In this document: positions 6,255-63,226 of the stretch, piece after piece | How positions within the stretch are numbered: the stretch's first letter is position 1 | How the letters are laid out: each line of letters starts with the position of its first letter | From: Odontesthes bonariensis | Taxonomy: Eukaryota > Chordata > Actinopteri > Atheriniformes > Atherinopsidae | DNA length: 64,000 nucleotides | Assembly: GCF_027942865.1 (NCBI RefSeq) | Contig: NC_134528.1 | Location: forward strand, 11,560,086 to 11,624,085 | Direction of reading: 5' to 3' | Notes under the pieces: generated by a model | Told to the model about the DNA's origin: nothing | The model's input: only the letters and a program-made list of their open reading frames with translations | Databases searched by the model: none | Translations under genes and position numbers: made by a program

Positions 6255-9200
6255 ATGGATGTATTTATGAAGGGGTTCTCCATGGCCAAGGAGGGGGTCG
6301 TGGCCGCCGCAGAAAAGACTAAAGCAGGCATGGAGGAGGCAGCTGCCAAGACCAAGGAAGGGGTGATGTATGTAGGTACGTAACACCCTCTGTTTGTGGA
6401 ACGGCAGAATAAAAAGAGACAGACATCTTTTGGGGGGGATGGATTCCGCTTTTTTGTGTCATGTGCAATTGCCTCGTGTATTTCTGCATTGTATGACGTG
6501 GGGTCCCATGGGTGTCCATGTCTGGGACTCGTGAGAAGTGAGAGGATCAGAGGGAGGAGGAGGAAGGTGGGAAAGGAGTGAGTGCCGGCAGGATACTGCT
6601 GCAGGACTGCTGCAGGGCAGGGGGTGTGGGATCTATAACAGTGATGGATGGATAGAATGGAGGGTAGATAGAAAAAGTTGTAGCTAGACAATAAGAGGTG
6701 GGTACTGGTTTATGAAGGATAGAAAAGAATCACGAGAAAAGAGGGAAGGAAAGAAGGACACTGCAGACACCTGCAATTGTGCTTTTATGACCTGTCCAGC
6801 ATTATTTACAATCAATGGTTTGCGGAGCTGATTGCAGAGGGGGACGTCCAGTGATCGACTCAATGCAGCTAGGCCCCTGAAAGTCATCGACCTGACCTAT
6901 ATTTAAAAATATACTTCATGCATCATTCCGTTGGCTTCCCGTTTGAAGATAAATGCGCAGATATTTCAGAACAAATTAAAGTGTACCAGGGCAGATCATT
7001 CATATATTCCATATTTCTTTAGAGACGTTTGATGCTGCTTTGTGCATCTGCTGTTCTTTCCTGTGCTTTTATTTTAGCTCAAGCAGCAACTGCGTCAGAT
7101 CTCAAGGTTAGTCCACCAGAGAGAGGGGGAGAGGGGAGGGGGTGGAAGTGGAAGTGGAAGTCCTGGTCTTCATATGCAGCCCATTCTTTCGGGGCTGCCA
7201 CTGACGTCACACCGCAGCTTCCAAATCTTAATCATGATGATGAAGAAAATGTGCTTGTAGGAGTCAGTGCCAAAAGCTGAAAGAATAAGGAGGGGAGTGC
7301 TGAAGGTGCTTCACACAATGATGTAGATAGTGCAATGTAGACAAGGATCACTTGAATCACTTGAGCACTGCAGCAACTTGCTTTCCCACTCTTTTTTTCC
7401 TCCTATATTTGAGTTAATGCAAGAGCGTGTGTGTATGCATATATGTTTGTGGTGCTGCAGCATGCTGGATTTTCAGTTTGTGCTGGTTGACGGCAAACCA
7501 CCATCGTCCATCCACAGCTCTTAGAACAAACCCCCACCCCAGGGAAAGAGGGTGGGATGCAGGGACATCGAAGAGAGAAGGGAGGGGTGTTATGTCACAA
7601 AAAGCTTTGAGCATGTAGTCCCGTGGCTCCTGAATGAACACATGCAGGGACAGGAAGAGGAAGATGGGTGACATAGCTAGATTACAGGGATGAAGGAGGT
7701 GGGAATGACACCTGGATGTTCCAGAGAATAGAGACCAGTGACAAGCTCAGGTGAGGGAGATGGAAGATTGGAAGAAATGAAAAAGCCGATCATTGGAGCA
7801 GGAAGAGAAGAGGGAGGAGATGTGATCGCTGAAGTGAAGAGGGTCGATGGCTGTGATAAAACCATTGTATCTGCCTGTAGCCGAGTGCACACACCAGCAT
7901 GTGAATACACAGTAACAATTTCCATACCGAGGTGAGACCTGGACAAACGGCAGGTCATGTTCACAGATTAAATGAATATCCCTCATGGGCATGCAGCCTC
8001 AAAAAAGCTCCAAATCGTGTTTCTGTGGTGATTTTATTTGGAGTTATTGTGGAATGGTTTCTATTCATGTCTTTATTTTATGAATATTCATTTCCTGTGT
8101 ATTGTCAAATCAGTAATCGTTAATCAAGGCTAAGTCTGTCTTTTTTTTGGATAAGCATTTAAAACACATTTAAAACACAGATTATGCAATTTAAAAGATT
8201 GCATAATCTTGAACAAAAGCACAAGATAAAAAATTTCTACGTGTCACTTGTGTTCACCTGACATCAATGTAAATTCCTTAGTAATTCAGTAGTACGCAGG
8301 GGGCTTTGTACAGGCCCTCAGCTTTTAAGCATTAAAACCCAGTAAAACGTACAATCTTCATTTCTCCCGGTTTATCATTTAAGACAAGAATTATTTAAGC
8401 AATTGTTTACTCGTCTGATCAGCAGACTCTCGTGTGTCAACCTTTGCTGGGATCTCAATGTGTTTATGATTTGAATTAGAGGAGATGAGATTGAATTTTA
8501 CCCACAGGGGTGAATAAAGTATTTTTTGTATTTTTCTATTCTATTCTATTCTATTTAGATATGGTTTTCAAGAGGTTTCAGGCAGGGTCAGATATAGATA
8601 TGGGCTCCCTCGGTTGACTGAGCAAAAGAAGCTGTGTCACTGCAGTGTGTGTGTGTATGTGCTGTCCTGCAGTACTGCTCTGTACTCAGGCACGTGGCTT
8701 GTGTACCACAGAGAGCGTGCAGCGAGATGGAGGGGAGCAGGAGGCAGCAAGGACGGATGGATGTAGGAAACTGTAAATGGTAGAATCCGCATCTGTGTGA
8801 CAGTCCAAAGAGAGCATGCTCAGTTTGCTCCAAATGATGTTGTTCTGCAGATATATTCTCCCTTCCTCCCACTACTGTCACTCATCTTTTAAAGCACAGA
8901 TTTCCCTCCTTCCACCCCTTTGACTCTGTCAGATTATATAACCACAGATTAATCTGTTAAGGATCATCCTACAATGAACACAGGACTGTGCGATGTGGTA
9001 GAATTCACAAAAAAACTGCTTTTCCAAGGAAAATGTTTCCAAGAATTCCTTTTTAAAGCTGTTAAAAACATAAAATACTGAGATATCATGGTTGAAAGGT
9101 GATGATGATGATGATGGACACTGCTGATCTGATGCTCACTGCAACATAATGTTGGTTAGTAGAGGAGTGTCAGCAGTTGGGAAATGTCCAAAAATACAAA

Positions 9201-11724: not shown

Positions 11725-14700
11725 ATATTTTAATAACTTTTGCTTTGAGTAAATGGGCTTCATTTGGGCTGCACAAAACAAAAATATGTGCAAAATTACA
11801 AAAAAAACAAAAACATTTTAAATTAAGGCTGGGCAACGATTAAAAACTTTAATCTAATTAATCACATGATTTCCCTGATTAATCACGATTAATCGCATTT
11901 GTTTGCGAAATCCAAAAATGAATTCAAAAGTCGTATATAGCTTTTAGCATTTAGTTTTATTTTAAATGTGCTGCCATATGAATGAAAGTGCCATAACATT
12001 TGTTGTGCAAACACACTTTTAACATCAGCATCTTTATATAGCAGCCTCGCCCCATGTCTGTTTCGTTGAAGGATTTGCGGGAATAAATAGTGTGTTTTGC
12101 CTCAAAGTGATATTTTAGACTGGAACAGTGATAAGACAATTCAACTTGGCAGTGTTTACAGATGACTTTGGTTCTGTCGACTCCGCCGTCTGGAAGAACT
12201 TTAAAATGAAAATGGCCGAGTAAAAGTTCCGTACCCTTCTCCATGTTTGGTGGATCCGCCGATTACTTTCTTTTCCGGTTCCACAGCAGACAGCAACAGA
12301 CTTTTACAAAATAAAAGCCTGTGAGCAACAGACTTTTACAAAATAAAAGCCTGTGAGCAACAGACTTTTACAAAATAAAAGCCTGTGAGCAACAGACTTT
12401 TACAATAATAAAATAAATAATAAAATCGACGTTAAATAATTAACGAGTTAACGCGATAATAACGAGTTAACTCGCCCAGCCCTATTTAAAATAGAGTCTA
12501 GTCTTAACCACAATAATTATTTCATCATTTGTGGATTAACAAATAATTGTTTCCCAAATATTCCTATAATTCCTCTTTGGCTTTGTTGTTCTTTCCTTCA
12601 TTTCCTTTAACAGCTTCTGTGGTACATTTTAGAAACTGAACCATGTTTTTTTTTTGGCATTTTTAACATAAGAAGAGTGACATTAACTCTTAATAAACTA
12701 TTGTTTGTGTCTAGAGTAAAGCTGCTCACCTGTGTCCTTTGAATGTGACGCACCCAGGTGCCTGGTGTACATGCATTGCTGTGCAGATGTGTGCGTGCAG
12801 ATTCAATATATCAGTCCACCCAGTTGGGTAGGAAGAAGGAGTCCTGTGGTCTTGGAGTGTGTCAATACATCAGAATACAACAGAGAGAACAGTCTTTCCT
12901 CTGTCTTAGAATTTTAAAGGAATTTTCTCCATTGTTTCCGCCCTCGGTGAAGAGAATAAAACTGTTAGGATTACACAAGCTAAAAATGTATTTGCACTGT
13001 TTGTACTTATGTGCTCTGTTTTAAACTATGATCAGTTGATTTAATTGCAACACTTAACAGCTGATCATCTCTCTTCTGTTCTTATATGTTAAATGTACTT
13101 ACATTTAACATTTGTGTCTTGCATGCCTTTGAGAGTTTTTCTATATTATTCCTTTTGTCTTGTGTGTCATTGCTGTGTTGTGCTACTGTTCTCACCTTTT
13201 GTTTTTATGTTGTTTGTGTCTCATTTGTGTTTTTCTGATAGGAGGAGCCTGTATACGAGGTGCCTATTTGACTGAGCAAAAGGGGATCATAGGTCATCCA
13301 GGGGTGGGCTAGAGGGAAGGGGAGACAGGGAGAGGATGTTCTGCATGCATGAAAACTGTTGAAACCTGTGAAATTCATTTCAATATTCCTGCAATACACC
13401 TGCAGAATCCTCATGTTTAAAGTTAAGTAGGGTGTATTGCAGGGTTTTTGCATTGGATTGCGCTGGTGTGCATCTGCTATAGTAATAGTACACAAGCAGT
13501 GAGCATTGGGAGGGGAAATGAGAGACAGAAGCTGTTGTGATGCTTCCTGAATTAAATTTAGTAAACTCCTGCAGTTTTTGTGGCTTCAAAGAAAAAGCTT
13601 ACATCAGACAAGTAACCATTACAACATCCTTTACTGATTGTTGCAAACATTTTCCCCTCTGACGCTCTCTAACTTGTGTGATTTAGGCAACAATGATACT
13701 AAAATTCTCATTTCTAACCATATCGACCCAGCTGATCGGAGCAGGCAGTGATTATATTAAAAATGCTTTTCGCACAGCTCAGGCTGAATAAGGCCTATGC
13801 GCCTGAGGCCTTGCAGGTCAGGGTTTTTGTTTTACAAGCTACAAAGCTATAACAGACTAACTGACCTCTTATAGAGCATGTTAATGGGAGCTGATTTAAT
13901 CACACAGCATGTCTTTTTGAGTGTGTGTGTCCAAACCGGTTTATGAAATTAAAGCTCGACAGTTGCTGAGGCCATCTGAGGACACAACGTTGCCATCACC
14001 TCATACTTTCATTTTTGCGGTCCACTCTACCTCTCTTGAGTATGTCGTTTGGTCTCATTCCTGTCCTCTTCTCCCACAGGGAGAGTACGGAGGAATGCAG
14101 CAGGGCGGGGAAGGAGGAGAGGTAAGACAAAAAGATTGAGGAAATGTTTTGAAAGCAGGAGCTTTTTATAATACACTTTTGGGAAAGTGCTTTATTGTTA
14201 TGGCAGGTTATCAGAGGGTATTAAAGTAATGCATCTACTTATGTACAGTACATTGTGATCCTTACATGCTTCTATGCAAAGGTCCAGTAAGTTGGATTTA
14301 GTCACATCCAGGTGTAAAAACTTCCAATTGCAAACTGCTTGATACCCCTTACCAACCCTCAAACTATGGTGGCTGCGAAAACCGGTCAAACACAATATGC
14401 CCACTCTCGCTTGTGTTGGGTTTGTTCCTTCTGGGCCTCTGTACTGAGATGGCAGTGCTACATGGTGGAGGGCGATGTGCAGCGTCTTTGTATATAAATT
14501 GCTTGTTTGGATATATTTTTATGCAATTATGCGCAACTGAAAACGTACTTTTGAATATTGTACTTCTGCCAATAGCTCACCCTAAATGTTACTCTCTAAA
14601 ACTTAACATTTTATGAAATATATTGTCAAATATATTTTTGAAGGAAATATTATTTAGTTTAGTAAATGTATGAGACAGCTGCATATAGTGATTCCTTCTC

Positions 14701-21739: not shown

Positions 21740-35578
<13,839 letters not shown>

Positions 35579-35860
35579 GGTTGAAATAAGCTAACTGGGT
35601 GATCGAACTAATAAAAATGCAACTAAACAACAAGGACAATGGGAGGGACGACAGGAAATGGGGTCGAATGACAGATACAGCAGTTCCTCACTCTGTCCCG
35701 TCCTCTGGCCGAGTGGGAAATGGCATGCTGTGTCAGTTTGCTTTAAAAGGCAGTATGAGCTAAGGGAGGAATCGAGAGCTTCTCGAGACAGACGCACGCG
35801 GAAGAGGAGGACCAACGGAATCGGCGCGCGCTCCCGAGTTTTCAAAGCTACAGAAAAGCA
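35579..35860 (-). promoter_or_regulatory. Probable glud1 promoter region, CpG-bearing
   Basis: Sequence immediately upstream of the glud1 ATG is richer in CpG than its surroundings, for example at 35790-35835, where several CGCG groups lie close together. This fits a TATA-less housekeeping promoter. No specific site is claimed. Confidence 0.4.
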
Positions 35861-36529
35861 GCCCGTTGATGTATTTCTTTTTCTAAGAACAGTTATGAAC
35901 AATTCGAGCCACCTTTTTACTGTGTTGTTATTTTCACCTACATATTGAAATCACACATATTTAGAAATGAATCTTTCTGCAACGTAACACTTTTATCTTG
36001 TAAATTAAGTAAAAATCTTTATCTTTATCTTTACTTCATAATCGTCAGAAATATATACGTTATACCTACATATTATTCATCATTGTAATGTTCACACAAA
36101 ATACAGTATGGTACAGTAAAATGTTACAAATTCAACAAGTCAACTCCATATGAAAATAGTAAAATTAGCTCGACTTTGACCTTCATTATGACCTCCACTT
36201 TGACCTTAATTTGTACAACTCAAATTCCCCCAAAAAGTTGTAGTGTTGAGTAAAATGTAAATAGGAAAGAATGCAATGATTTTCTTTTCTCGTGTTCGAA
36301 GATTTTTTTCTCAATAGAACACCGAAAATACATCAAATGTTTAAATTTCCTAAAAAAATTTGAATAATTTTTAATGTGATGGCAGCAAAGCATCTAAAAA
36401 AAAAAAGTTGGATGTGACCAAAAACAAAAACTGTACTAAAGTACTAAAAAGAAGCATCTGGAAGAAGATGTTGTAGCTAATAGATAAATGTAGATGTAAA
36501 TGTAGATGTAGATGTTGTAGCTGTAGTTT

Positions 36530-36637
36530 TTACGCTGCTTTATGCTGTTCTTTTAAATGCATTGTCTTTATGTAAAGCACATTGAGTTGCCTGTGGTATG
36601 AAATGCGCTATATAAATAAAGATGCCTTGCCTTGCCT
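36530..36637 (+). repeat. Retroposon-like 3' end
   Basis: The stretch GTAAAGCACATTGAGTTGCC then GCGCTATATAAATAAAGATG and (CCTTG)n is the typical terminal sequence of a widespread fish retroposon. TATATAAATAAA here should not be taken for a promoter. Confidence 0.55.
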
Positions 36638-37499
36638 AATTAGGTTAACTGACAACAGGTCAGTAACATGACTAAGAATAAAAAGAGCTCCTGAGAGAGG
36701 CAGAGTCTGTCACAAGTAAAGATGGATGGAGTTTCAGCTATCTGCAAGAAACTGCTTAGCATAAAGTCTTGAAAATGAACAGATTGAAAATAGATACATA
36801 TATTTACTAAGATCTTTATTTTATTATCATCGGTCAAGCGAACAAAGACAGCTTTAGAATTTTATCTTCCAGAAGACAAGATGGTTGCGTTACTTTAATG
36901 CAAAAGGGCCATCAATGGATTTAATATAATTCAAATATTTAAAGTGATTGCATGACAGACATGCAAAAATGAAGGAGAAATGCTTCACATTTATGCTACA
37001 TTAAACACAGCACAATGTCATTTTGATTTTCAGAAGCATTAGCTTCCAGCTGCTGCATGATGCTCACCAGCCTGGTCATTCATTAGCTTTTCTATAGCAC
37101 GGCTTGAAAGTCTTGTACTTTGTGGTTTGCGATCAAAGGGTCTATGCAAGGCCTGCTGTCATCAGCAGTTCCCTGACCTGTTGGGTGTGTCACACAGTTG
37201 TGAGGAGAGAAGGCAAGTCAGGTGGGAGATGCTGAGGAGGCCCATTATGCTTGCATCAGTCATTAACTTTCTTCATGGGCAGAAATGATTAACGAAGGAG
37301 ATGACCTAGTTGCTGGAGTTTATGTTGGTATGTTGCATGCTATCATTTTCTGATAACAAGCAGGACACAGATTTTGTTAGTTTCCTAAAGGGTCCCATGA
37401 ATTTCTTACAAACTCACCCAACAGCTGGTAAGACATTGGATTTAAAAGCACAAATGTCAATAGAAAACTTAGACAATCTGCAATTTTAGAGGAATTCAT

Positions 37500-38010
37500 C
37501 TTCTCTGAATCATCAAAATGATACAGTTTGACAGACACAAGATAGTATTTTCCATCAATAAGGTGATTCCCAAGGAGCTATTAGACAAAAGCTTGGCATA
37601 GTGTGCAGTGTATTTTAAAGAAACTGTAGAAATGGGGGGACAATCTATCTAAGACGATCTACTGCAGGTAAACAGTGTCTCAATGTGATTTCTTTAAGAG
37701 ACAGAAAAAAATCCAGCAAAGACTTGACACACAGGACCTGAGGGATGCATCTGGCCCTTGAGTAGATCCATTTATTGTTAACTAGAGCTGTTGAATGTTA
37801 AATGGTCTCCATTGAAGAAAAGGAAACAGGAAGAAAAAGCTGAGGTATGCCACAAGAACCTGGCTGAAAATCTGTGGAAACAGGTCTCATGGAGTGATGA
37901 ATCCTCCCTAGAGAACCTTGACATTACTGAAGCAGGGTGGGAACAAAAGGCAGCCAACAGCCAAAGAGGAGCTTTGGAATGTCCCTCAAGAAGCATTTGG
38001 GCAGTTGTTG
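37500..38010 (+). mobile_element. Degraded DNA transposon, probably Tc1/mariner-like
   Basis: Plus-strand fragments with stops include a KVIPKELLDKSLA-like block near 37560-37600, DLRDASGP near 37737-37760, and WKQVSWSDESSLENLDI at 37876-37926. The last is reminiscent of the WSDES motif before the second catalytic acid of Tc1-type transposases. The frame is broken in several places. Confidence 0.45.
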
Positions 38011-40117
38011 TGTCTAATCAAGAAGTCATAATTTTGAGCAGCTTTACATTTGTGGTGTGCATAAAATTTGAGTGAACAGAGGAACACCTGGAAAGCGTTT
38101 CAGAGACAGCTGCGATCAGAGACTATATTGCTATGATATCACTGTAGCCACAGAACTGAGAGGTTCTCTGTCTTTACTTTGATGTCAGCCACACATCGGT
38201 AAAGTTCAATGACCATCGCTTTTTAGTATTGCCCTCTTTGGTAGGTATCTACCAAAGGTATCTATCAACTCTTCCTTTGATGAAAACAATACAACTTTGA
38301 TGTTGCAGCTGGCAAAAGTCAGAGTGTGTACGCATGTGTCTGTTTAGGTAGGGAAAGGTTGGTGTCTTTCTTTGGGCGGTGATGAGACAACCAAGATAGT
38401 AGCTCAACATACATTTCGTTAGAGGTTTTCTGACTCAGCAGAGGGGCAAAATATCAAGGGTACCAATCAGCCAATCAGCAGGGCTTTTTACATAGCCTTT
38501 ATGCATATTACAAGCAGAATGTTTTCCAAAAAAAACGTGATGTCCCAGACTGTTGGACAGTAGACGCCAGCAGCAAATATCATGTAGGGTAATGTTTAAC
38601 AATGTTTTCCAGGATGACACTGACCACGTAACCATGTGTCCTATCTATCTGCATGCACCGTCAAAGAACAGCAGAGTGCGTGAATGTTGCTTAACATTAT
38701 CATTATTTCACACATATACACAAACGTGAACGCGTGTACATTGTTTACTGCTTGATATGTCAGAGTGCTGAGTTTGTCTCAATGAGGCCCTGACCGAAGC
38801 CTGCACCTGTGGACTCTGCACATGAGATAAGATTAAGTCTATTTCCTGGGATGCATGTACAAATATCAATTCATATGGATACACAGTAGTACAAATGCAT
38901 ACATTCTACATAGTACAGTATGAAGAGCAAGTTGATTAATAACTCAGCCGGTTGTAATTTTTCATACAGTACGCAGAGTTTTGTGGAGATTTGAGAATCA
39001 AGAGTAACCATGGCACTCATTACAAATGGCACATAATCAAGGCCTTCAATATACTAATGCAATAATGGTAGGGCTTATCTCCCAGTGTGTTGCGTACTGC
39101 CATGCCATATAACGGTTTTTATCAACTTTTAAAGCTGATATCTGTACAGCAAGTTGAGATGAAACAACTGTGCATTTGAAAGTATTCACTGTACAGTCTG
39201 AACATTCATATCCCTGTTTGTTCTCTTTGTTCTCTCAAATAGATAAGCACACAGCAGTAAAGATAAAGTCCGGCAAAGGTGCAAGACAAAAACAGCATGC
39301 AAAGGAAAAGGAGAGATTGTCTACATACTGAGAGTCAAGCTGCAGAAATGTTAGAATATAACGCAAACTGCAGAGATCTGTGATATCCTGGTTACTGGCC
39401 ATACAAAAACGTAATTCCATACGATTGGTGCTGTGGCTAAGAAATGTGAAATATGTGCTCACATTTCTTTAATGTGAGCTTCGTGTCCTTATAAGTGTTG
39501 CATCAATTAAGTTTGAGGAAAACAGTGCTCAAAATCCTGGACAACCTCCCCTTTTCCATTCTGACAGCAATCTCAGATCAATAAAGATTTTCACACTGGA
39601 ACATGCTTTTCAACACACAGTCAAAAACAAGCTTTATATTCTTTGTTTTGTACAGGTCCCTAATCACAGAGCTGTACCCCCAAATCCACCGTCTCTGTGA
39701 TAAGTTTTCATTTTTGATCATTTCTTATGTCTTATTTTGCCTTTTGTGTTAATTTTCCATCCAATTGGGTTGTTTTATGTCACATTTTGGTCACTTTGTG
39801 CCTGGCGTTGGTCATTTTATATCTTCTCAGAGTTGTTTTATGACTTCAGCGGAGTCATTCTGCATCTTTGTGATCACTTAAGGACTCTCGATGATCTTTT
39901 TTTGCTGGCATTTAGTCTCTTTGTGATAATTTTGCATCCATTCATACAAGTCTGTTTTGTGTGCTATGTGTGTTCCTCAGATAAACTGTATATTCAATTT
40001 CTAGAATAGGTTGGGCAGTGCTTGGAAGGCCTTTTCAATACTGACAAGTTCTGAGATTTTAGTGTATATTTTTTATTAATTCAATTAATGGGAATATCAA
40101 TTCCCATACAAATGTAT

Positions 40118-40232
40118 GATGGTATTAGCACCATCGCCTCACAAGAAGAGGGTTCCTGGTACAAATCCCGGCTGGGGCCTTTCTGTGTAGAGTTTGCATT
40201 GTCCCCAGGAGTGAGTGTGCATGGTTATTTGG
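40118..40232 (+). repeat. tRNA-like SINE fragment
   Basis: TTAGCACCATCGCCTCACAA, then GGTTCCTGGTACAAATCCCG, then GCTGGGGCCTTTCTGTGTAG and GAGTTTGCATTGTCCCC match a very common teleost SINE, including a B-box-like ACAAATCCC. Confidence 0.65.
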
Positions 40233-42139
40233 ACTACTCTATCAGCAAAAACTAATTATAACTTTTGACAGCACAGCCATTGGATTATCCAATAAACCTA
40301 ACACTTTGTTTCTGGAGTGATTATTCTTTTAAAGCTATAAGTATCTTGAAGGATATTCTTTTGATTTATTAAAAAAAATTCAGAACATTTTGTCTTTATT
40401 TCTTTTACTATACAGTTTGGAGGAAAAACGTCCATTGAGTCTCTAAAGAGACACGGAGAAAAATAAAGTAATAGAATAAAAATTAGGACATTAATTATGC
40501 AAAATCCTACATTCATTTCTCTCAAAGTAAACTATCTTTTATTCTCCAGCATCCCATCAAGGGCTCAGATGCTTCCAAAGGTTTCAGGAGTGAGACAAAA
40601 ATGTCTACAATCTAACACAAAAGCAGCTTCGGCACAAGACCACCTTGCATAAAACTTCGGCCAATATTTGCGTGATTTTTTTTGTTTGTTTCTTATTTAT
40701 CATTTTTAGGTTTCTTTTTATGTTTATCTCGTGTTTTTTTTCTTCAGTATTTGCTGCTGTAATGGTGCTACTTCTTAACATTAGATTTTCAGAAGAAAGT
40801 AAAAAAAGTAAAAAGCACTGTACAAAGAGCAAAAGCCTGTTTTTCTGTGATGTTAATCAGTTAAAGAACTTTGAACATGGACTTTTGGAACCGATATCTG
40901 TTAAGTTCAGCTCAGGTGTTTCTCATCATTATCATGTCAAAAAAGACCAGTTAGAGAAACTTTTAATAACTGGGTGGAAATAACCACGTGAAGGACGAGA
41001 ACTTTAGTGCCTTGGATTATTAGAGCAATATATTTTCAATCACCACACCGGTGCACCAGTTTCCAGCTTGTGTGCTCCCGTTCATCTTTTATTCGTCCCT
41101 TTCGCTTTCTGTTTTCCTCATTGCACTGACACCCTTTGATTTATCAGGGCCTGTGTCAAAGGGTGGACACTGCCGAATCATTGGCTGACAGCCTGACAAC
41201 TCCCACCCAATCATAGGGGTGTGACCAGGGGAGGAGTGCAGGGTAAGAGGGGGTATGTGAGTTGAAGTAAACAAGGGCCTGTTCAGCTGAGTCACATGGT
41301 GCTTTAAATGGAACAGAAAGTGTCTGTTGGATAATGTGGTTAAAGTTCTGTTTCTGCCCATGTTCGTTCCTTTTCTTTTTTAATTTCAGACCATCAAGCA
41401 ATCACTACTGCAGCCATTTAAATCCACTTTATAGTATATTGCACAGACATGGTTGAACTAAAGTGATCAGGCCTCTTAAACAACATGAAAGGTCACACAC
41501 TCCCCAGTCGCTGAGGTCATCCTGAGAATGAGCTTCAGTATCAAGATTTACTGGTTTTGCAGAGGGATAGAGGTAAATGATAAAGAATCTTTTTAAGAGA
41601 GAAGTAGGTTGAGGAGTTAATGTTAAACATGCGCTAGCTTCACTGTGAATAATCACTAGAGATCAAAGTTCAAATAATCTCTGAGAAGGATAAACATTTC
41701 CAGGTAATTAGACCCCAATACAGTTGTCTTACACATACTGCCAGGGCCTTGATAATGATAGAAGCAGCCTCAGATGGACTGTACGGCACATTTGTTTTTA
41801 CAGAGTTTGGTGTGGCTTTAATACATTTCACCCCACTTCATCCCTTACTTGTGACCAACCCTCAATTAATCAACTAAGAGCCCCATGTGCCAGAGGACCA
41901 CACCTCCATTATTATTCAGAACTTTTGTGTGGAAGGGTTCCTCCATATCAAATTTTTTGCCTAATCCTGATATGGGATTTCATCCCTAAAAACACAGCAG
42001 TTATAGTAGATCTATACTTCATTACAGACTAAAGCTCAAAGATTTAAAAAAAAAGAGATAAAGACAAAGAAAAGGCATTTTTGGTTCTATAGTTCTTGAC
42101 ACTCTATGGTATTATGTTTTTCTGTTCTACTCTACACAG

Positions 42140-42400
42140 TATAAATAGTAAGGAGCTGCCAGAGGACAGCACTTCCTCACACTAAAGACCACAAGAGGAT
42201 CTGCATAACTAAAACGGTTCGCCAGCAACTTACCAACCATGCAGATAGTTTCACAAACTGAACAAATCACCAATACAAACTTTAAAAAGAAGCCCTGGCA
42301 CAACCTCCCTTGTCTGACATTGTTACCGACCTCAAATGGAGCTCAGAAGATATCGCCTCGTTTAATTTGTATGGTTTGGTTGTTTGTTTCACAAAGCTAG
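42140..42400 (+). other. TATA box followed by a short open frame (candidate small gene)
   Basis: TATAAATA at 42140-42147 has good TATA-box form. The first downstream ATG, at 42239, opens a frame that starts MQIVSQTEQITN, continues KKKPWHNLPC and stops about 53 codons later. I do not recognise the protein. A GT at about 42370 could be a donor extending it. This is a weak candidate; chance occurrence in AT-rich DNA is possible. Confidence 0.25.
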
Positions 42401-42609
42401 TATTCTTATGATACATCTTTGACTCAATTGAACAAATATATTTATATGGTTAACACAATAAATTATTTTAGATGCTTCAATAAAACAACTTTTTATTTCT
42501 GTAGATGTTTACAGTTTTATACCTAATAACATGTATGTGCACGTAGCAACCAAACTGGTTATCTGTAGAAATAATAAGTGAATTATACAGCCAGAGTCGC
42601 TCAACTTAC

Positions 42610-42663
42610 CTCTTTAGACTTCCCCTCTTCTAAGTGCTCCTTGGAAGAAGTCGTGTCTGACAT
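42610..42663 (-). CDS. Candidate first coding exon of an unrecognised gene
   Basis: On the minus strand an ATG starts MSDTTSSKEHLEEGKSKE, and the frame runs straight into a good donor (GTAAGT) after exactly 18 codons. The charged, low-hydrophobicity start looks protein-like. In human, TMEM247 lies just downstream of EPAS1 in the same orientation, so a gene here would be plausible, but the sequence is too short to identify and no second exon was found. Confidence 0.25.
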
Positions 42664-43952
42664 TTCCACTCTGCTCAACCATGTAAAGGATGCTAATTTC
42701 AGTAACTACAGTTAAACACTAGATGGTGCAACTAGGTCAGTCCAACATGCTACTGTCTGGCTGCATAGGTGAGAGAAGATGATAGAAATCAAAGGAAGCC
42801 CTTTGCTTTAATGCCACGATGAGCTTCCAAAAAGTTGATACACATATTTTGGAGAACTAATAATGGATTCATTAGTACTGAATGTTATGCTGGATCATTA
42901 GAAATCTGACATCAACTGGTAAAGGATCGTTAGTAAATACATTTAAACATAGTGTATAATTTAAATTTCAAATCTCTACTTTTTTTTCTTTTTTTTTTTT
43001 ATAGTTTTGTACCATCTTGACACAAGGGTACAATTTGCAGAATCAACGCATTGTTTTTAAAGTGATTGCTTTCACCACTGTGGAGATAAGGAAAGGGTGA
43101 AAAGTTATCTCAGACAATCAAGAGCAAATAGAACTCAAGCGTTTTCTATCGGCAGATTATCCAACCCAGCCTCAGGGCGCGTATGATAGTGACGTTGGTC
43201 CACAGCACAAAACGTTTGCTTCACAAAATCCATTTTCATTTAGGGGAGCTTATGTGATGATGTATAAGTTCAACGTCCGCCTCGCATTCTCTCTGCCTGA
43301 TGAGTTTGTTTCATTGAACACTGGATTTGCCCACTTATAAGGACGCCCAGTCTGATTTTCCTACAAGAGACCACAGGATCGAGATCCAGCTGATGTTTTC
43401 AACAGCCCTTTCCTCGTTATTTATTACTTGTGAAAGCTTAGGGGAAAAACTGATTAACGTGATTAGGTTTAGATGTTTCTGAATACATGTTGTGTTCAAC
43501 TGTTTGAAAGATAGAAATGTTTAGTGCTGAGATAGTCTAATATTCAGGCATCACCATTACAATAATAAACAAATAATAAAATTAGGACACAAGCATGTTT
43601 CAGGCAGGTACGAACACAGCTTAACATTTACTTGTAAGAGAGGGCGGCCAAGTCTGTGACTGTTCTGCTGAGTAGTTAAATGTGGTTTTCACCTCACTTG
43701 GCTCAGTAAAATTTGACCATGTTGCGAAGTATCACAGTGAGCAGAGAAGGAGCCGAAGAGTGGGGGAGAAGACTGACATTTAATGCCAAGAGCCACAATG
43801 TATGTTTGGTATGAGGTCACATAGCAAAATTTGATATTGTGAGTCCGTAATTCCTCATTTTCTTACAGTGATTATAGTCCGTCTGCATTTTGCTTTTCCA
43901 TTTTGATTCAGTTTTACACCAGTCAAGTCAGTTGAACTGAAACTTAAAATGC

Positions 43953-44046
<94 letters not shown>
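43953..44046. repeat. Long (TG)n microsatellite
   Basis: About 94 bases of nearly pure TG with one TTT interruption lie downstream of the HIF-like gene. Confidence 0.95.
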
Positions 44047-44049
<3 letters not shown>

Positions 44050-44462
44050 TCGCACTTAGAAACCGAGAGGTAAAAAGTTGATAAAGTTCCCACGAGAACT
44101 TTCCTATCGAATGTCTCTATTCAGGAAGCTGCGGCTTTGACTTGCGACTACTCACATCTCCTCATCAGCACAGAGCACATCACTCTGTGTGAACCCTATA
44201 TGTACTACGCGTGTCAGGTGGCCCAGAAGGAAACCCCATAGGAAGTACGGTAAGGCTCAGAGAGGTCATGAAAAAGTCAAACAACCTGCTCACATAAACA
44301 TATTTCACTACACCCGTCAACTGTCTGTCAACCACAGTCTACACAAAAAAAAGTTCTAGTTTTCTCTTTAGAAGACAGAAGTGCTACTGCAAAGATTATG
44401 CAACTGTGTGACACAACTGAGAAATGATGGGCTACTGTGTCTACCTGAAATATCACTGAACT

Positions 44463-44468
44463 TTTATT
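44463..44468 (-). terminator. Candidate polyadenylation signal of the HIF-like gene
   Basis: TTTATT on the plus strand is AATAAA on the minus strand, about 185 bases beyond the TGA stop. This supports the transcript ending shortly after the truncated frame. Confidence 0.45.
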
Positions 44469-44649
44469 ACAACATGTCTCTAATCTGCAGTTCAAATAAT
44501 TGCAGCTGTAAGAGGAACACACAATAATCCACTTTGACTGAGAAAGTTCACATTTAATGAGAGTTAGATAAACTAGCAAAATATTAGAAATTTACTGAAA
44601 CAGGAAGAGCAGATTGCTGTTCTTTAGTTGGGTTCTGCAGACTCTGCTT

Positions 44650-47600
44650 TCAGCACAGGTATCTGTTGACAGTCTGGTCCAAGGAGAGCTGCAGAGACGG
44701 CTCCTCCACTCCACTGCGACACGGGCACATAAAGCACACAGCATTAAACATTTGTAAAAGATGATACTCTAGAAACAACTAAAACCTGCTTTATTTGCAA
44801 AATTTCCACTGAAAAGCACCAAAACTGCATGCAACACGCATCTTATGCATGTTTGAGTGTGTTAAATGTAACACAGTCATTCTACAATGCTTTCTATCAG
44901 TCAAAAGAAGTATAGTAAAGCCAAAACCAATTTCTAAACTAATTTGGGCTATATATTAATTTTGATGGATATTCTCGTACTTTTTTCCACTAAAACTAAT
45001 CAAGTTTGATCAAAAATACTTAAACTATAATGAAACTAATCTTTACTTACAGCCCTGAAACAAATACTTGAGTGCTATAAATCGCAGCATATCAAGATCA
45101 ACTTCAACTTGCCTATCTGTGGTCCAGAATTTTTTATTTATAGTCAAAGTTACAATTTCACATTAATGAGCAAGCAACAGAAACTGGCTTTTGAAAACCG
45201 TCTTGTTAGAGATTATTCCAGGTCAATTAAAATCCAGTCGAACAGCAAAAGCGAAGAATATTAAAAAAAGATTTTTTCAAATTGAATTGGGTTCTTTTTT
45301 TGTGTTAGGCACGTTATTTAGAGTGAAAGTAAGGGGATTTAAGAGGAATTTTCAGGAAGTACTGAATGTCCATGGCTATTTTTCTACATTTCCAACTAGC
45401 AAAGGTAAAAAAAAAACAGAGTCAGTAACAGCCGCAAAACTGTAACAGTTAAATGACTATAGCTTTTTGGACAAGAGACACTTTTGAAACACACAGAGAT
45501 CTATTGTCCCGATCACCATGACGGAGAGAGATTTCACAATGTGTCATGAAACATTGATATTACTAAACCAGTGAAAAAATGCAACTGAAACAAAAGGGTG
45601 ATTTATGACTTCAGCCAGTCGAGTATCATTAGTGTTGTACAGTTCTAAATGTTCAAAACATTTTTCTTGCAGATTTGTCGTATTAGTGCAGTTTTAACTA
45701 TCTGCAAAAAGCTTCTCGTGGAAAACTGACGTGAAATGATGCACGCACCTGAGGACATAAGTAACGCAGAGGATGCAGAGCGGCTGGTTAGAGCTGTGCC
45801 TGGACCTGGGAGTTCGGATACTGGGGATGACAGCACTGTGACTCTCCACCCAAACATAACCGCCCCCTCTCACCAGCATCCTGTACTGACCGCTGACTGA
45901 CTGACTCTTCAAACACACTGCAGAGACAGGTGTAAAAGTCACAGGCGTGAACTGTGACAATGTGTGCAGTTTGTGAGCGTGTGGGTGCGTTGGCGCTTAC
46001 AGTTGAGATGATTTTTGTTCAAACAGTTTGTGTCCAAAGTGTGACAGAGATCGTAGATGGAACGGCCCAGCAGCTCCTCAGGCCTGTAACCTAAAAGAGA
46101 AGTGACTCTGCACAAGCAAGAAAACATGCAGAAGAAGAAGAAGAAGCATTTGAGCATTAACAAAGCTCACGTTTGACTATTTTCAGGAAGTTGACAAGAA
46201 CATAGGCAGCAAACCAAACCAGTTTATGGTTCACTGATACACGCACTCATAGCTCTCAACTTAAGTTGAGAAAGCCTCTCTAAATCTTTGTCACACAAAA
46301 TGAACAAAACAAAATGCAGTTTCACAAAGTCTTGTACTTTCTTTAAACGGAAATAGACATATTTGGTATCTTTAGGAGGTCCTAAGTGTCGGTTTGAATG
46401 ACGCTTGGCTGCACAGTATGAGCCTAGTGTAACAGATTATGCTCTGTAGAGGTTTTGTGTTCCAAACATAGATTGTCTACAACTCTATTTGTTTAGAACT
46501 GTCCTACATCATATTGAGTTATTATTTACTCAATTAACTATAAAACCACACCACAGCATATTCAACTTTTCAAAAGTATCTAAATCACACTTTTTTAAAG
46601 CATGAATGTGGAGCCTTGACACTCCCGCTGTACACCGCTACGCTGCTACAACAATGGTGACTTGTTGACCAGAATTGTGAATTCTGGTCCAGAACAGTTG
46701 ATGTATGACGTGAAATACGTTTTATTTGAATGTTTTCATCCTTTTTTCTGTTCCATTAAGTATGGCTCTGCGTTAAAAACAGGAATACAGGAATAATGAA
46801 GTCCCGAAAAATACCATGAGTACAAATAGATAAAAGGATTGACCCACTCGATCTCCATTTAATTGGGACAGTATGTATTTTCACCATATTTATTCAACAA
46901 TTCTTTGTTACTGAATATGTGTATCTTTTAATCTTTGTGTACACATATTGGTTTATTCATCAAGAAACATTTTTATTTAATGACTTTTTGTATTCCTGTG
47001 TAAACAAAGTGGGTGGTGCTCACCTCAGATGTTAACAGAAAGCTTAGGAGGGTGGGATTGTTGCGGCTCTACTTCAAACTGTTAAAATAGCTACTTTGTT
47101 AAAGAATTGTTTGTTTGAAGTGCTCTTTGGGTGGGGGAAAATAAACCTGAATGTGAAAAAAAACTCTAAGGCGCTCTCGTTTGGTGAAATCATTTAAAGT
47201 GCCTTTATTTTCAGGGCATACTCACAGTGACTTCTAAAACACTATTCTCCAAGCTGAGAATTCCTGTTGGTTGAATTCCACTAGGAAAGGACCTTGAACT
47301 CCATTAAATCGGTCTGACTTCTTGAAAAAGGCTAAGCCAAAACACGATGGTGTTTCAGAAGTCATTATGACTGTGCCTTTAAAAGTAAAGGCCTTTGAAA
47401 TGTTTTTTTTATTATAAAGAGACTGCCTTGGAGTTTTTTGACATTCTCGCTACAGCATTAGTCTTAGTTTTCCATAGGCCATTTATCTATAAGTCGAGGA
47501 CCATCATTCATTCAGTTTTTGTCAGGCATAGTGTGGAGTTAGGACTGAACACCTATTAACAAACCCCTGCAGAAATGTTGAAATAAATAAATGCATCAAT

Positions 47601-50600
47601 GCATAGAAAATAATCCATCCATCCATCCATCCACTGCTACATATCCAGAAGCAGGTTGCAGGGACAGCAGATCCCCAAACCTCCGTCTCACCATCCACAT
47701 CATCCAGCTCTTTTCCGAGGGGACGCTGAGGCATTCCCAAGCCAGCCGAGACATATAATGTGTGTATTTATAGAGTCACAGCAGACCCAAGATTCCCCAA
47801 GCGTAGAAATAAATAGAAGAAGTGCAAAAACAATGCAGTGACGTTTAAAGAGAGACGTGTGAGACGCCTCGATCTAGTTGACACGCTCTCAGATGGTTCA
47901 CGCAGCCGTCTACGTTACTTTTTTTTTTAAACCAGGGTTTACAAATGATTGTTTTGATCTCGTGGAGAATTACAGAAAAAAGAAAGTGAAGAAAATTTCC
48001 GTCGTCCACATTGTTAACTTTGTTCTAAGTGAGATAACTATTTACAAAACGAACATGAAGCGCTGTTAAACAGGATGCGAAACTGGCTAGACTAGACTTT
48101 TGAAACCACAGGAATCGCCCCCCCTGGCCAACAGACAGAACGCAGATTTAGAGACTTCCTAAATATAATGCATGAAGATCCTATACTGTGAACAGTGTCT
48201 TTTTCTATTCCTAAAATGTGTGCATATATTCATTTGTGCACATGATAGCTTTCATCTTCCATTCCACAGAAAATTCAGCTTATTCACAAGTTCAAGTAAC
48301 GCAGGAATGGAGGAGCTCACGTGTGTATACGCACCTCTGGTCACAGTATGTGAACCTCATGTCCATGCTGTGCTGGCTTGTGAATGTGTGTGTGTTGAGG
48401 AGTGTGTGTGAGAGGGGCAGAGGCCGGCAGGTCAGGAGTACACAGGAAACCGAAGACGAGGCCACACACATCTTCGCTCTGCCCTGACAGTGCAGGACCT
48501 GAAGTCACAGATCCCAGAACCAAAACATTAAAAAACTTCACCGGAATCTTTTTTGACACTAATGATGTTTTGAGGGGCAGAAATGTTTCAGTTTAAAGTT
48601 GCATTGTTTCTCTTCAACCTTCCAGGTCGCAGACTTGAGGCTGGTGCTCCTCCCTCTGTGCGTCAGAGCGCTTTTTATCCTCAAGACAAAGTCCCTCTTC
48701 TGACTGCAACAAACTTCTAGAAAAAGAAAAACAAGACATTTACTGAGCTACATGGATGAACCTGTGAAAATCTGCAAAAACAGAACACACAGACCGCTCA
48801 ACCGAACTCCCCTGAGTGTTAACACACACACACACCTGCAGTCAGACGCAGATTATTTCGGATTTCCTCATGATCACAGGGGTGTGTATACTCAAAGATA
48901 TTGTGCCCCATCAACTCCGTCTGTCAGAAAACAACGAGCAAATTTATCTTTAAATCCTGAAACATTATTCTTATACTGACTGCATGAGTTTAGTCTCACC
49001 TGTGTCAAGCCCATGTATTTGCTGACATTATCTGACAGGAAGATCATGTCTCCCTCAGTGGACAAGACCATCAGAAATCCCTCCAGAATCCTCAGGTACA
49101 TGTTTGACTCCTCCGACAACATGAGTTCCTTTGTCTCTTTCTCCTCCTTATCCAATCGTCCATTTCTATTCAGTTCCTTGGCCCCTTCCACCCCTGGTAG
49201 ATATGTGTGCCTTGTCCCTGCATTTGTCCCAGAAGTTTCTAAAACAGAGAAACGTCGGATTATCTCCAAAAAACAGAGTTTCTTGCTTGAGAAACTTTTC
49301 TATTCCATATTTTGTTTGTAGTGTTTGTAGGAACTATAAATACAGGAGAACAAAAGGCTGTGGTGTGTTTTTATAATCACTGCTCGCATTGCCTGTTGCA
49401 GGTGTTATAAAGGATTTCCTAAGTGAAACTACCAGTTAGGCACCATTGTTTTCAGAAGAAAAAATACCATTTTAAAGTGTATTTTTACATGTCTGGACTT
49501 ATTCTAAATAAACACGTTGGGCGGAAATAAGAATTCATGTATGAATTGCTCCAGAACCTTTGGAGGGTTCATTGTGCAGTTTTTAAATAATTTTTAGGGC
49601 AGGAGAGTTTTTTTTTTTTTTTTACATCTGTGATCTGTAAAACTAACTCATCTTCATAATGTATTGATTAGACATAGCAAGAGCACATGCACAGACACAT
49701 TAAAAAGGCGTTCAGTGGAAATTTCATGACTGCATTTGTCTTACATGAAGACATTGGGTCCTACGCATTCTGAGATTTTTCAGGTGCCAAATCTATAAAA
49801 AAAAAAATGTTTTGAGCAAAAAATGAAGCAAGTGAAAGTGAGAAAGTGCTGCCACAGCATATGTTACATATGTTTTATATGTTTTACATTTAAATGCACC
49901 TTTTACCAACATCTGCCCGATTCTGAAACATACTACTTTTCCTACTTTTTAATCTCCTGATCTAGTTTGTTGAAAGTACAAATAACCAGAGATGGTGTTG
50001 CTGATCTCTTTTTAACAGGTACGACGTCTGTTTTCTTACCTTTGAGCAGCGTGTGCATGCGTATGTAGCTGAGGGTGAGGCGGATGATAGAGGGTTTGTC
50101 CATGTGAGTTTGGACAGAGGGCTGCAGTGGCAAGAGACGAGATAAATCTCCAAACACGTCAGACTCTACTCGCCGTCTCCGTCTGGCTGCCTCACGGCTG
50201 ATGGCTCTACGGAGAGCAGAAGTCAGGAAAAAGAAAAAAACGACAGTAACTTAACAGAAATAACTGAAATAACAAATGCACTGTACACTATCAATCTTTT
50301 AACTTGAGATTTATCTACATTCATGTGATGAAATTACAATGAGCACTTTAGAGGTGAATTTACTTCAAAGCACACCTACAACGTAATGATACTTCGCAGA
50401 AGTGTTTTCACTTTGTCAGAACTTTAGACTATTTTAGACGATAATATTTATCTCTTCCAGTGCACCTTTGCCTTGTACTGTTGTTACTTTGCAGATTTGG
50501 ATTAAGTTGTTGGTTAGATGGGACCTAAAACTGCAAAAACACCATGAGTGCATGGTGGTTGGGGGGAAAAATAGCTATTTAAGTACTTAACTTTTAATGT

Positions 50601-50895
50601 TTCAACTTGATGGCACAGTGACTTTTTGACCTCAACTAAAAGGGTTTTAGAACGTTTCTCAATACGTAGGGAAGCATGTCCCACTTCTTCAATATCCAGT
50701 TTCAGCTTATTTTCATGCCTTTCCCTACTTTTACTAGCACTGCTAATACCGTTTTGCTTTAGATTTTGATTGCACGGCTTTAACTTGTACTTTCCTCCCC
50801 TTTAAAATCTTTTTTTCTCAAAAAATATTTTCCAAAACATGAAGTTTCTCAATGCAACACACTCTTTACCTTCTTCTCTCCTTGTCAGCCGTCAT
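44650..50895 (-). CDS. HIF-alpha-like bHLH-PAS protein, epas1-related, ending after PAS-B
   Basis: HIF-alpha proteins pair with ARNT to bind hypoxia response elements. Nine exons, 50895-50870, 50206-50040, 49238-49000, 48920-48836, 48716-48619, 48498-48335, 46107-46001, 45917-45749 and 44713-44650, total 1119 bases in one frame: 372 residues. The start MTADKER and 26-base first exon match EPAS1. The basic region is [12 protein letters not shown], followed by an HLH with [24 protein letters not shown] includes [18 protein letters not shown] and [16 protein letters not shown], then [11 protein letters not shown]. Exon 6 ends in [16 protein letters not shown] has [16 protein letters not shown] and [17 protein letters not shown]. 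After [12 protein letters not shown] comes TGA. The oxygen-degradation domain, its hydroxylated prolines and both transactivation domains are absent. Exon 5 uses a weak donor (GTTGAA). It could be an epas1 duplicate or a gene called hif1a-like in some fish. Location beside prkce favours epas1. Confidence 0.88.
46108..48334 (-). other. Intron 6 of the HIF-like gene
   Basis: This 2.2 kb intron separates the end of the PAS-A/PAS-B linker from the PAS-B exons. It contains a fish repeat at 47613-47763. No other exon was recognised. Confidence 0.65.
47613..47763. repeat. Truncated abundant teleost repeat beginning (ATCC)n
   Basis: ATCCATCCATCCATCC followed by GCAGGTTGCAGGGACAGCAG, CATCCAGCTCTTTTCCGAGG and GCATTCCCAAGCCAGCCGAG follows the well-known fish LINE-derived repeat with a (CATC)n start. 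Confidence 0.6.
49239..50039 (-). other. Intron 2 of the HIF-like gene
   Basis: AT-rich intron containing a T run at about 49606-49624. No other feature was seen. Confidence 0.65.
50207..50869 (-). other. Intron 1 of the HIF-like gene
   Basis: Short first intron between the 26-base coding exon and the bHLH exon. Nothing else was seen. Confidence 0.65.
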
Positions 50896-51334
50896 CGTGT
50901 CCTGCAGGAGTCTCCAGGTGTAGGCATGGTGAGAGCTGGCTCGGAAAAGTTGTGATGGTTCACAGCTCTAGCGGGAGTCCAGAAGAAGCTCCAAATCGCA
51001 CCATCACAGGTAGCCTAATTCATCGGTGAGGCAATTAGTGGTGTCATGTGTCACAAGGCAAGTGCTTCCTGCAGCGCGGGCGATTTGGGCTGACTCCAGT
51101 GAGCGTCTCCTCTCCCCTCTGCATGCAAATCACCTACAGGGTGCAGTGATAGGACAGCTGGCCAGGAAGAGCATCACACACCTCCTCCCTCCACTCTACC
51201 CTCCCCTCTCTAACAGAAACTTTTGAGCATCCCTCAGATTTGCCTCTGTAAAGCAGGGGCAACACAAAAAACACAAAAAAAGAAAGGCAAAAAAGACACA
51301 GAAGCCCCTGGGATTGATGTAGACAGCTCAGTGT
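50896..51334. promoter_or_regulatory. Short interval between prkce 3' end and the HIF-like start
   Basis: Only about 440 bases separate the candidate prkce polyadenylation signal from the HIF-like ATG. This stretch must hold the 5' UTR and at least the core promoter of the HIF-like gene, unless non-coding exons lie further upstream. No TATA box was recognised. Confidence 0.35.
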
Positions 51335-51340
51335 TTTATT
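51335..51340 (-). terminator. Candidate polyadenylation signal of prkce
   Basis: TTTATT on the plus strand (AATAAA on the minus strand) lies about 1.6 kb beyond the prkce stop. Confidence 0.45.
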
Positions 51341-52940
51341 GGAATCAGACCAGACAGGACTAGCCCGGCTGTTGCACTACATTTTGGCACAGAGTAAGAT
51401 AGTGTGACCAGGAACAGCCCTACCCCTGGGTGCACAAAGCTTCACTACACACCGACTCTACTGCACAGACAGCAACCAGCTCGTCTTCTCATCACTGTAC
51501 AACAGTCCTTCTCAGTGTGTGCATGTGTTTGTAAGAGAGACAGTGAGGAGGAGGGGGAGGGCTTGAAGAAGAGTCTGTGTGTGGTATTCGGTGTGTGCGT
51601 GTCTGAAATGAGAGGTAATTCAGCTGCTGGTTCTCCACATTTCCTATCAACCGGCTGTAACAGACCTATAATGGTATAGTTATAGTAATATACATAAAGG
51701 TTTCCTCATGATACACTGTACAATAATAATAATAATAATTATAATGATAAAAAATAGAGAGCAAAAAGAAATAAAAGCCATTCTTGAAAAAAAGCTAAAG
51801 AGAGAAAAGCAAGTGGTTTTGGCAAAGAGAAAGAGAGATGGCTGCTGGAGGTGGAAAAAGGGAATTGGTGCTTTGGAGAAGGGAAGCAAAGGAGGGAGGC
51901 TGAAAACACTGATGGTAGCTATAGAAACAGAAATGCTGAGGACAAAAAGTCACAAGACAGGGAGGAAAAAAAAGAAAGTTCACACATTCATGCACACAAA
52001 AATGTACATTCACGATTTTATTTTTATTTAAAAAAAAAAAAAAAAAAAACAACCACGGGCCAACACATTCACACCAGTAGGGCAGGCATGGAGTCTGAAA
52101 CGAGCAGATGGATGAAATATCCGGACACTGAGCTTTTCACTGCTACACAGGCCGCCTGTAACGCTCTGCTCCACATAATTAGTTCAATAGCCTGTAACAT
52201 TCACTTTATATACACAGGACAGGAGGACAGAGATTGTGCGACAGTGAAAGAAATATTTCAATCCCACAAAAAAAAAGAAGACATTTCAAAGAGGAAAAAA
52301 AAGAAAACACACAAAAATAAACACATGAACAAACAAACCATAAAATATATAGATAGTCATGGTATTGCACAAAGGGAATTTGGCCCTAACTGGTCCACAA
52401 TAAGGACAGTAATAACACAGGTAGGGTGCTTGTCCATGCGCCACGACGCTCCTTTACTAGCAGACAATACCAACACGATACAGCCATTTAACACAGGCTA
52501 TATACAGGCCTCAGCACCCAGCACCTTCAGTTCACATGTGTACAGGTGCCGGAGAGAGAAGCAGTGTAAGTGTGAGTGTCTGGTTGTCTGAGCTTGTGGA
52601 TGTCTGAGAGCATCTCAAAGATTGTAGTGTTTGTGTGTAAATCTGCGTTAAAAGGGTGCGGGTGAGAGTGTGTGTGAGAGCGTGTGCAGCTGTGCATATT
52701 CATATTTATTCTCATAGTCATATTCATAATAAACCCAGGCAACAATAACAACACAATGCAAGAAATAATATTCCAAAAGTAACAACAACCAATAGCTTCA
52801 AAGAAAAGGAGTGACCGTGTTTATGTGTGTGTGTTTTGTACATGGAATTACGGTTCTACTGAGTGTAAGCATGTGTACGTACGAGCATGCCATGTAAAGT
52901 GTTGCTGATCAGTGTGTGTGTGTGTGTGTGTGCGTGCGCG
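51341..52940 (-). other. prkce: Probable prkce 3' UTR
   Basis: Non-coding, low-complexity sequence follows the prkce stop. It includes a (CA)n run touching the stop (plus-strand TG at 52913-52931), an A run at 52030-52049 and an (ATA/AAT)n tract near 51722-51745. A 246-codon plus-strand frame here is lysine-rich low-complexity sequence and not a gene. Confidence 0.5.

Positions 52941-63226
<10,286 letters not shown>

Follow-up and report, generated by a model that had tools for sequence, protein, structure and literature searches.

The window analyzed here, a stretch of 64,000 nucleotides from Odontesthes bonariensis with a GC content of 40%, carries a HIF-alpha-like gene on its minus strand, flanked upstream by a protein kinase C gene and downstream by GLUD1 and a synuclein gene. 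The joined coding sequence of the HIF-alpha-like gene (minus strand, 50895..44650) consists of nine exons with a total of 1119 bases, encodes 372 residues with zero internal stops, and is interrupted by introns that have GT-AG boundaries in all eight cases. Coding exon 1 (50870..50895, start ATG at 50895-50893) encodes MTADKERRR, and its first six residues match the N-terminus of EPAS1. The remainder of the basic region and the helix-loop-helix follow in exon 2 (50040..50206; Pfam bHLH_HIF1A 54.1 bits, cut-off 27). As judged from exon joining and alignment, exon 3 (49000..49238) encodes the linker between bHLH and PAS-A, which is rich in charged residues and 28 residues longer than in HIF-2-alpha, together with the start of PAS-A. 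PAS-A continues through exon 4 (48836..48920) and exon 5 (48619..48716), both placed by exon joining and matches to solved chains, with a loop in exon 5 that the alignment shows to be shorter than in HIF-2-alpha. Exon 6 (48335..48498; exon joining, alignment) comprises the end of PAS-A, a shortened linker and the start of PAS-B, and exons 7 (46001..46107) and 8 (45749..45917) encode PAS-B, as supported by exon joining and Pfam. Finally, exon 9 (44650..44713; exon joining, solved-chain matches) adds 14 residues and VNRYLC before a TGA at 44652-44650. A chance reading frame is ruled out by the intact spliced frame, by the matches to solved chains, and by the stops in the remaining two sense frames of the joined exons (18 and 14). 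The gene model put forward in a preliminary description, with nine exons in an intact frame encoding bHLH, PAS-A and PAS-B, was thus recovered by exon joining, Pfam and solved-chain matches, as was its termination 20 residues into exon 9. A poly(A) signal had been placed about 185 bases further on, and a candidate AATAAA (minus strand, 44463..44468) indeed begins 182 bases beyond the stop; a second motif, ATTAAA, lies 92 bases beyond it (44558).

In the other direction, the 305 bases 5' of the start codon contain six ATGs. The last of these opens an upstream ORF of 11 codons (minus strand, 50892..50927), whose TGA overlaps the main ATG (ATGA). This ORF would be present in the mRNA, provided that transcription starts 5' of it, and if transcribed could damp translation of the main frame. 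The 2.1 kb upstream contain three RCGTG hypoxia-response cores, all on the opposite strand, which we consider uninformative.

Upstream, a protein kinase C gene with C1 and PKC C-terminal domains in Pfam shares the strand of the HIF-alpha-like gene (minus strand, 52944-59378, and further to about 62847). We read it as PRKCE from Pfam, PDB and a comparison of its C-terminus. Between its exons lies a piece of 18S rRNA (plus strand, 54138-54274), probably an inserted rRNA fragment, which matches model positions 1296-1453 of Rfam SSU_rRNA_eukarya with 51.6 bits (gathering 50). GLUD1 (minus strand, 24199-35470) lies downstream, with one piece confirmed by PDB and three more read by eye. Further downstream, the first coding exon of a synuclein gene was found on the plus strand at approximately 6255-6380 (Pfam Synuclein 80.9 bits); our guess is that it is of the gamma type. 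In addition, a BED zinc finger fragment (minus strand, 11957-12262) scores 22.8 bits against a cut-off of 20.6, and perhaps derives from a transposon or a transposon-derived host gene.

Paralogue assignment and published counterparts

The 372-residue protein has the bHLH, PAS-A and PAS-B domains of a HIF-alpha. Seven Pfam models match it above cut-off (bHLH_HIF1A, HLH, PAS_11, PAS_3, PAS, PAS_9 and PAS_4), and searches against solved chains return HIF-2-alpha (E = 6e-98), HIF-1-alpha (5e-91) and HIF-3-alpha (3e-78). In the alignment with 4zp4_B, a HIF-2-alpha chain of 360 residues solved with ARNT, residue 358 of the chain pairs with residue 366 of the 372, so that only six residues are left and the gene encodes roughly the same span as the 4zp4 construct. 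The stop falls six residues beyond SLDQT. Full-length fish HIF-2-alpha, on the other hand, exceeds 800 residues.

The sequence by itself does not separate HIF-2 from HIF-1. Over aligned residues, with gaps excluded, identity is 172/325 (53%) to HIF-2, 163/322 (51%) to HIF-1 and 148/322 (46%) to HIF-3. This is a large divergence, as HIF-2 is 68% identical to HIF-1 and 55% identical to HIF-3. Of the residues that occur in a single paralogue, the protein has 3 of 29 for HIF-2, 4 of 24 for HIF-1 and 6 of 64 for HIF-3. The assignment to HIF-2 is therefore based on the adjoining PKC gene and on the N-terminal MTADKE. PRKCH is the neighbor of human HIF1A, and would as such point to HIF1A. We rejected it because the C-terminus of the PKC gene matches human PRKCE at 35 of 42 residues vs 25 of 42 for PRKCH; its best PDB match among the matches listed is PRKCH, and no PRKCE catalytic chain is among them. 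Synteny of EPAS1 with PRKCE has been reported for chromosome 2 in human and for chromosomes 12 and 13 in zebrafish (PMC3238403), and the gene described here adjoins the PKC gene read as PRKCE in the same way. The claim that a gene resembling HIF-2-alpha stops after PAS-B was therefore borne out, with the qualification that its HIF-2 part follows from the PKC neighbor and MTADKE and not from sequence identity.

A gene of this type has been described before. In Salmoniformes, Esociformes and Neoteleostei, a HIF2A cut down to between a third and half of its length has been retained (Townley 2022, PMC9789988), against which the 372 residues found here can be set. The truncated form is assigned to HIF2Ab in the same paper by its flanking genes, as sequence does not do so reliably, and the truncation is repeated in Babin 2024 (PMC11370800) and in a killifish study (PMC10805151). 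Our gene resembles truncated HIF2Ab in being HIF-2-alpha-like, in encoding the N-terminal part only, in being a separate gene and in the EPAS1/PRKCE synteny, and we found no feature that distinguishes the two. We are therefore confident that the locus beside PRKCE is HIF2Ab, the teleost duplicate of HIF-2-alpha, in its truncated form (HIF2Ab is named epas1a in zebrafish). Unlike this gene, the zebrafish orthologue epas1a is full length, and Townley 2022 (PMC9789988) cites a robust response of full-length zebrafish HIF2Ab to low oxygen. Because that paper both reports the truncation and suggests that any protein made from the gene could be a negative regulator of oxygen-dependent expression in the manner of HIF3A splice variants, the truncated gene and the inhibitor idea are both already in print, and the locus is one more copy of a known gene. 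Among the literature matches listed, whose coverage leaves out most subscription papers, there was no functional test of truncated HIF2Ab. A 2024 review describes the HIF2A studies in its data set as all concerning HIF2Aa, and the lack of data on HIF2Ab as a critical gap (PMC11486919).

Coding constraint and the ARNT interface

Three observations speak to the history of this copy as a coding sequence. Firstly, in a neutral simulation at 0.02, 0.05, 0.1, 0.2, 0.3 and 0.5 changes per site, frame and ATG survived in 44%, 14%, 1.7%, 0.3%, 0 and 0 of 300 runs, respectively (5, 1 and 0 surviving runs at 0.1, 0.2 and 0.3), which makes the open frame uninformative at the small divergences of 0.02 and 0.05. 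Secondly, GC at fourfold sites is 96/165 (GC4 0.58) vs 36% in the introns (4,927 bases), and lies near that of hand-picked pieces of the neighbors, with 66/107 in four pieces of GLUD1 and 93/144 in six pieces of PRKCE, single pieces ranging from 0.41 to 0.76. Thirdly, the 42 changes at columns that are invariant among HIF-1, HIF-2 and HIF-3 are conservative, with a mean BLOSUM score of 0.64 vs -0.21 for random changes (1 of 5000 runs), in a comparison that covers one-step changes only. Of the residues invariant in the family, the bHLH retains 23 of 38 and the PAS domains retain 86 of 113 (5 further deleted positions uncounted), a difference in constraint that does not reach significance (P = 0.09). 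Open frame, GC4 and conservative changes favor long constraint as coding sequence, which is new for this copy. The three tests also carry the selection that acted before the truncation, and therefore argue against an old pseudogene without proving present function. In this respect, the argument of the preliminary description against a simple pseudogene agrees with our results, as the gene has little of the appearance of a pseudogene that decayed long ago.

In a different reading of the locus, the gene is a slowly dying relic. The C-terminal exons would have disappeared long ago, expression would be minimal and without further importance to the fish, and the frame would still be open because constraint ended only recently. 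The term "relic" was applied to truncated HIF2A by Rytkonen 2013, as quoted in Townley 2022, where the truncated HIF2Ab transcript is described as unrecovered from PhyloFish and as very scarce in the transcriptomic studies that detected it (PMC9789988). The strong divergence of the protein, with losses in the bHLH, the PAS-A loop and the linkers, would also fit such a relic. Against it stand the 372 intact codons and eight intact introns, a GC4 above intron GC and close to that of the neighbors, and the conservative nature of the changes. Moreover, truncation across several large fish groups (PMC9789988) is hard to reconcile with neutrality, unless it was repeated and recent. On balance, we consider a relic unlikely, though still to be taken seriously.

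The residues that would contact DNA and ARNT are partly retained. The basic region aligns without gaps, with ERRR of exon 1 at the position of HIF-2-alpha ERRK, and R20, A22, A23, R24, R26 and R27 (RxAARxRR) are all kept. Five of eight dimer positions of HIF-2-alpha are kept as well (V192, H194, D258, S355 and T359), of which V192 and H194 were essential by co-IP (PMC5847239). The three others are changed (F169 to V, I223 to L and R247 to Q), which gives a mixed picture of the interface that is likewise new for this copy. Dimer formation is disrupted by F169D, and R247H has been linked to cancer (PMC5847239). Position 169 is S in HIF-3-alpha and position 223 is V in HIF-1 and HIF-3, so that these two positions vary among working relatives. 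Of 16 positions of the PAS-B pocket, 8 are kept and 8 differ from HIF-2-alpha (A277I, Y281C, M289L, S292N, V302S, T321S, G323S and N341T), with A277I and M289L giving the HIF-1-alpha residue. Judging from these residues, a dimer with ARNT is plausible, and may be weaker in PAS-B.

The same substitutions could be taken to mean that the protein is a bHLH-PAS regulator with a role unrelated to hypoxia, such as repression in particular tissues or pairing with another PAS protein, and no competitor of HIF. The changed PAS-B surface (R247Q), the altered half of the pocket and the longer linker are compatible with such a role, and functions other than oxygen regulation have been raised for HIFA diversity in general (Townley 2022, PMC9789988). 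The retention of most dimer positions and of the basic-region arginines argues against it, as does the fact that two of the pocket changes give the HIF-1-alpha residue; we found no pointer to another partner. We therefore rate a role outside hypoxia as improbable, and slightly more so than a relic.

The 3' end of the gene

The preliminary description had reported that no prolyl-hydroxylation or C-terminal activation motif occurs in the following 8.6 kb, and Pfam and motif scans of 35600-44649 gave the same result. Neither ODD (PF11413) nor CTAD (PF08778) matches any of the three minus-strand frames of 35600-44649, which reaches down to GLUD1, and LxxLAP and YxCEV are missing both there and from the minus-strand frames of 1-35599. 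A more permissive pattern, LxxLxP, which is frequent by chance, occurs 4 times in 35600-44649 and 19 times in 1-35599 (minus-strand frames). At the DNA level, a degenerate LxxLAP pattern has 2 matches in the 64 kb vs 0.99 expected, neither of them inside the gene. As a positive control, the human HIF-2-alpha C-terminus scored 61 bits for ODD and 66 bits for CTAD; we rejected concealed ODD or CTAD exons on the minus strand of 35600-44649. In a control scan of the gene's own DNA, the bHLH passed its cut-off but no single PAS exon reached the threshold, so that a very diverged ODD exon could evade the scan. With this proviso, and for the minus strand, the gene has neither an oxygen-degradation nor an activation domain, as expected of an IPAS-like inhibitor.

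Traces of the lost part were sought as well. In the 200 bases 3' of the stop, a relic of the remainder of exon 9 did not outscore shuffled sequence (p = 0.65), and across 9 kb 11 of 60 shuffles did as well as the top match. KNSNLLF, which resembles human EKSNFLF, was accordingly rejected as a decayed remainder of exon 9. A large repeat at the cut point was likewise rejected, as there are no repeats of at least 40 bases in 35700-51500. That the gene is instead a full-length HIF-alpha with missed exons, either through skipping of exon 9 in other transcripts or through an assembly error at the TGA, is highly improbable: we worked from a single genome sequence in which a very diverged ODD exon could evade detection, but the minus-strand domain and motif scans and the search for an exon 9 remainder were negative, and the same kind of truncation is known from other fishes (PMC9789988).

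A possible HIF inhibitor encoded by its own gene

With no ODD, the oxygen-dependent decay signal should be absent, and with no activation domain any action of the protein should be that of a competitor. The following course of action can be proposed. Lacking LxxLAP, the protein would escape prolyl hydroxylation and VHL. It could enter the nucleus via its basic region, pair with ARNT through its PAS domains and, with RxAARxRR kept, may occupy hypoxia-response elements, so that the output of full-length HIF would be lowered where and when the truncated protein is expressed. The changes at three of the eight dimer positions, the large divergence from HIF-2 and the scarcity of the transcript in other fishes (PMC9789988) weigh against this proposal. 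An inhibitory effect on HIF, as predicted from the sequence, is a tentative proposal to which we give somewhat less than even weight. The same holds for the explanation as a whole, in which a truncated HIF2Ab beside PRKCE acts as a HIF inhibitor.

IPAS, a negative regulator, is likewise a HIF-family bHLH-PAS protein without activation function. It is, however, a splice product of HIF3A, whereas the locus described here is a separate nine-exon gene beside a PKC gene, with its lowest identity to HIF-3; an IPAS-like action would thus be reached by another route, with a gene in place of a splice form. NPAS1, which reportedly represses as a dimer with ARNT although its own activation domain is not functional or is lacking (PMC5111884), offers a comparable case, but belongs to another bHLH-PAS subfamily.

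More broadly, selection may have preserved in derived bony fishes just the part of HIF-2-alpha that binds ARNT and DNA, as a restraint on the hypoxia response that is itself insensitive to oxygen. Such a gene would be a dedicated equivalent of IPAS in the genome, formed when a copy from the genome duplication lost its 3' exons. This wider proposal is more doubtful than that of an inhibitor at this locus. If the gene is a relic, it documents ordinary gene loss under way. If the truncated copy does restrain HIF, hypoxia tolerance in derived bony fishes would be under a permanent, oxygen-insensitive control that is missed when HIF1A and HIF2Aa are measured, and the gene would be a clear example of a genome-duplication copy converted to an inhibitor through truncation.
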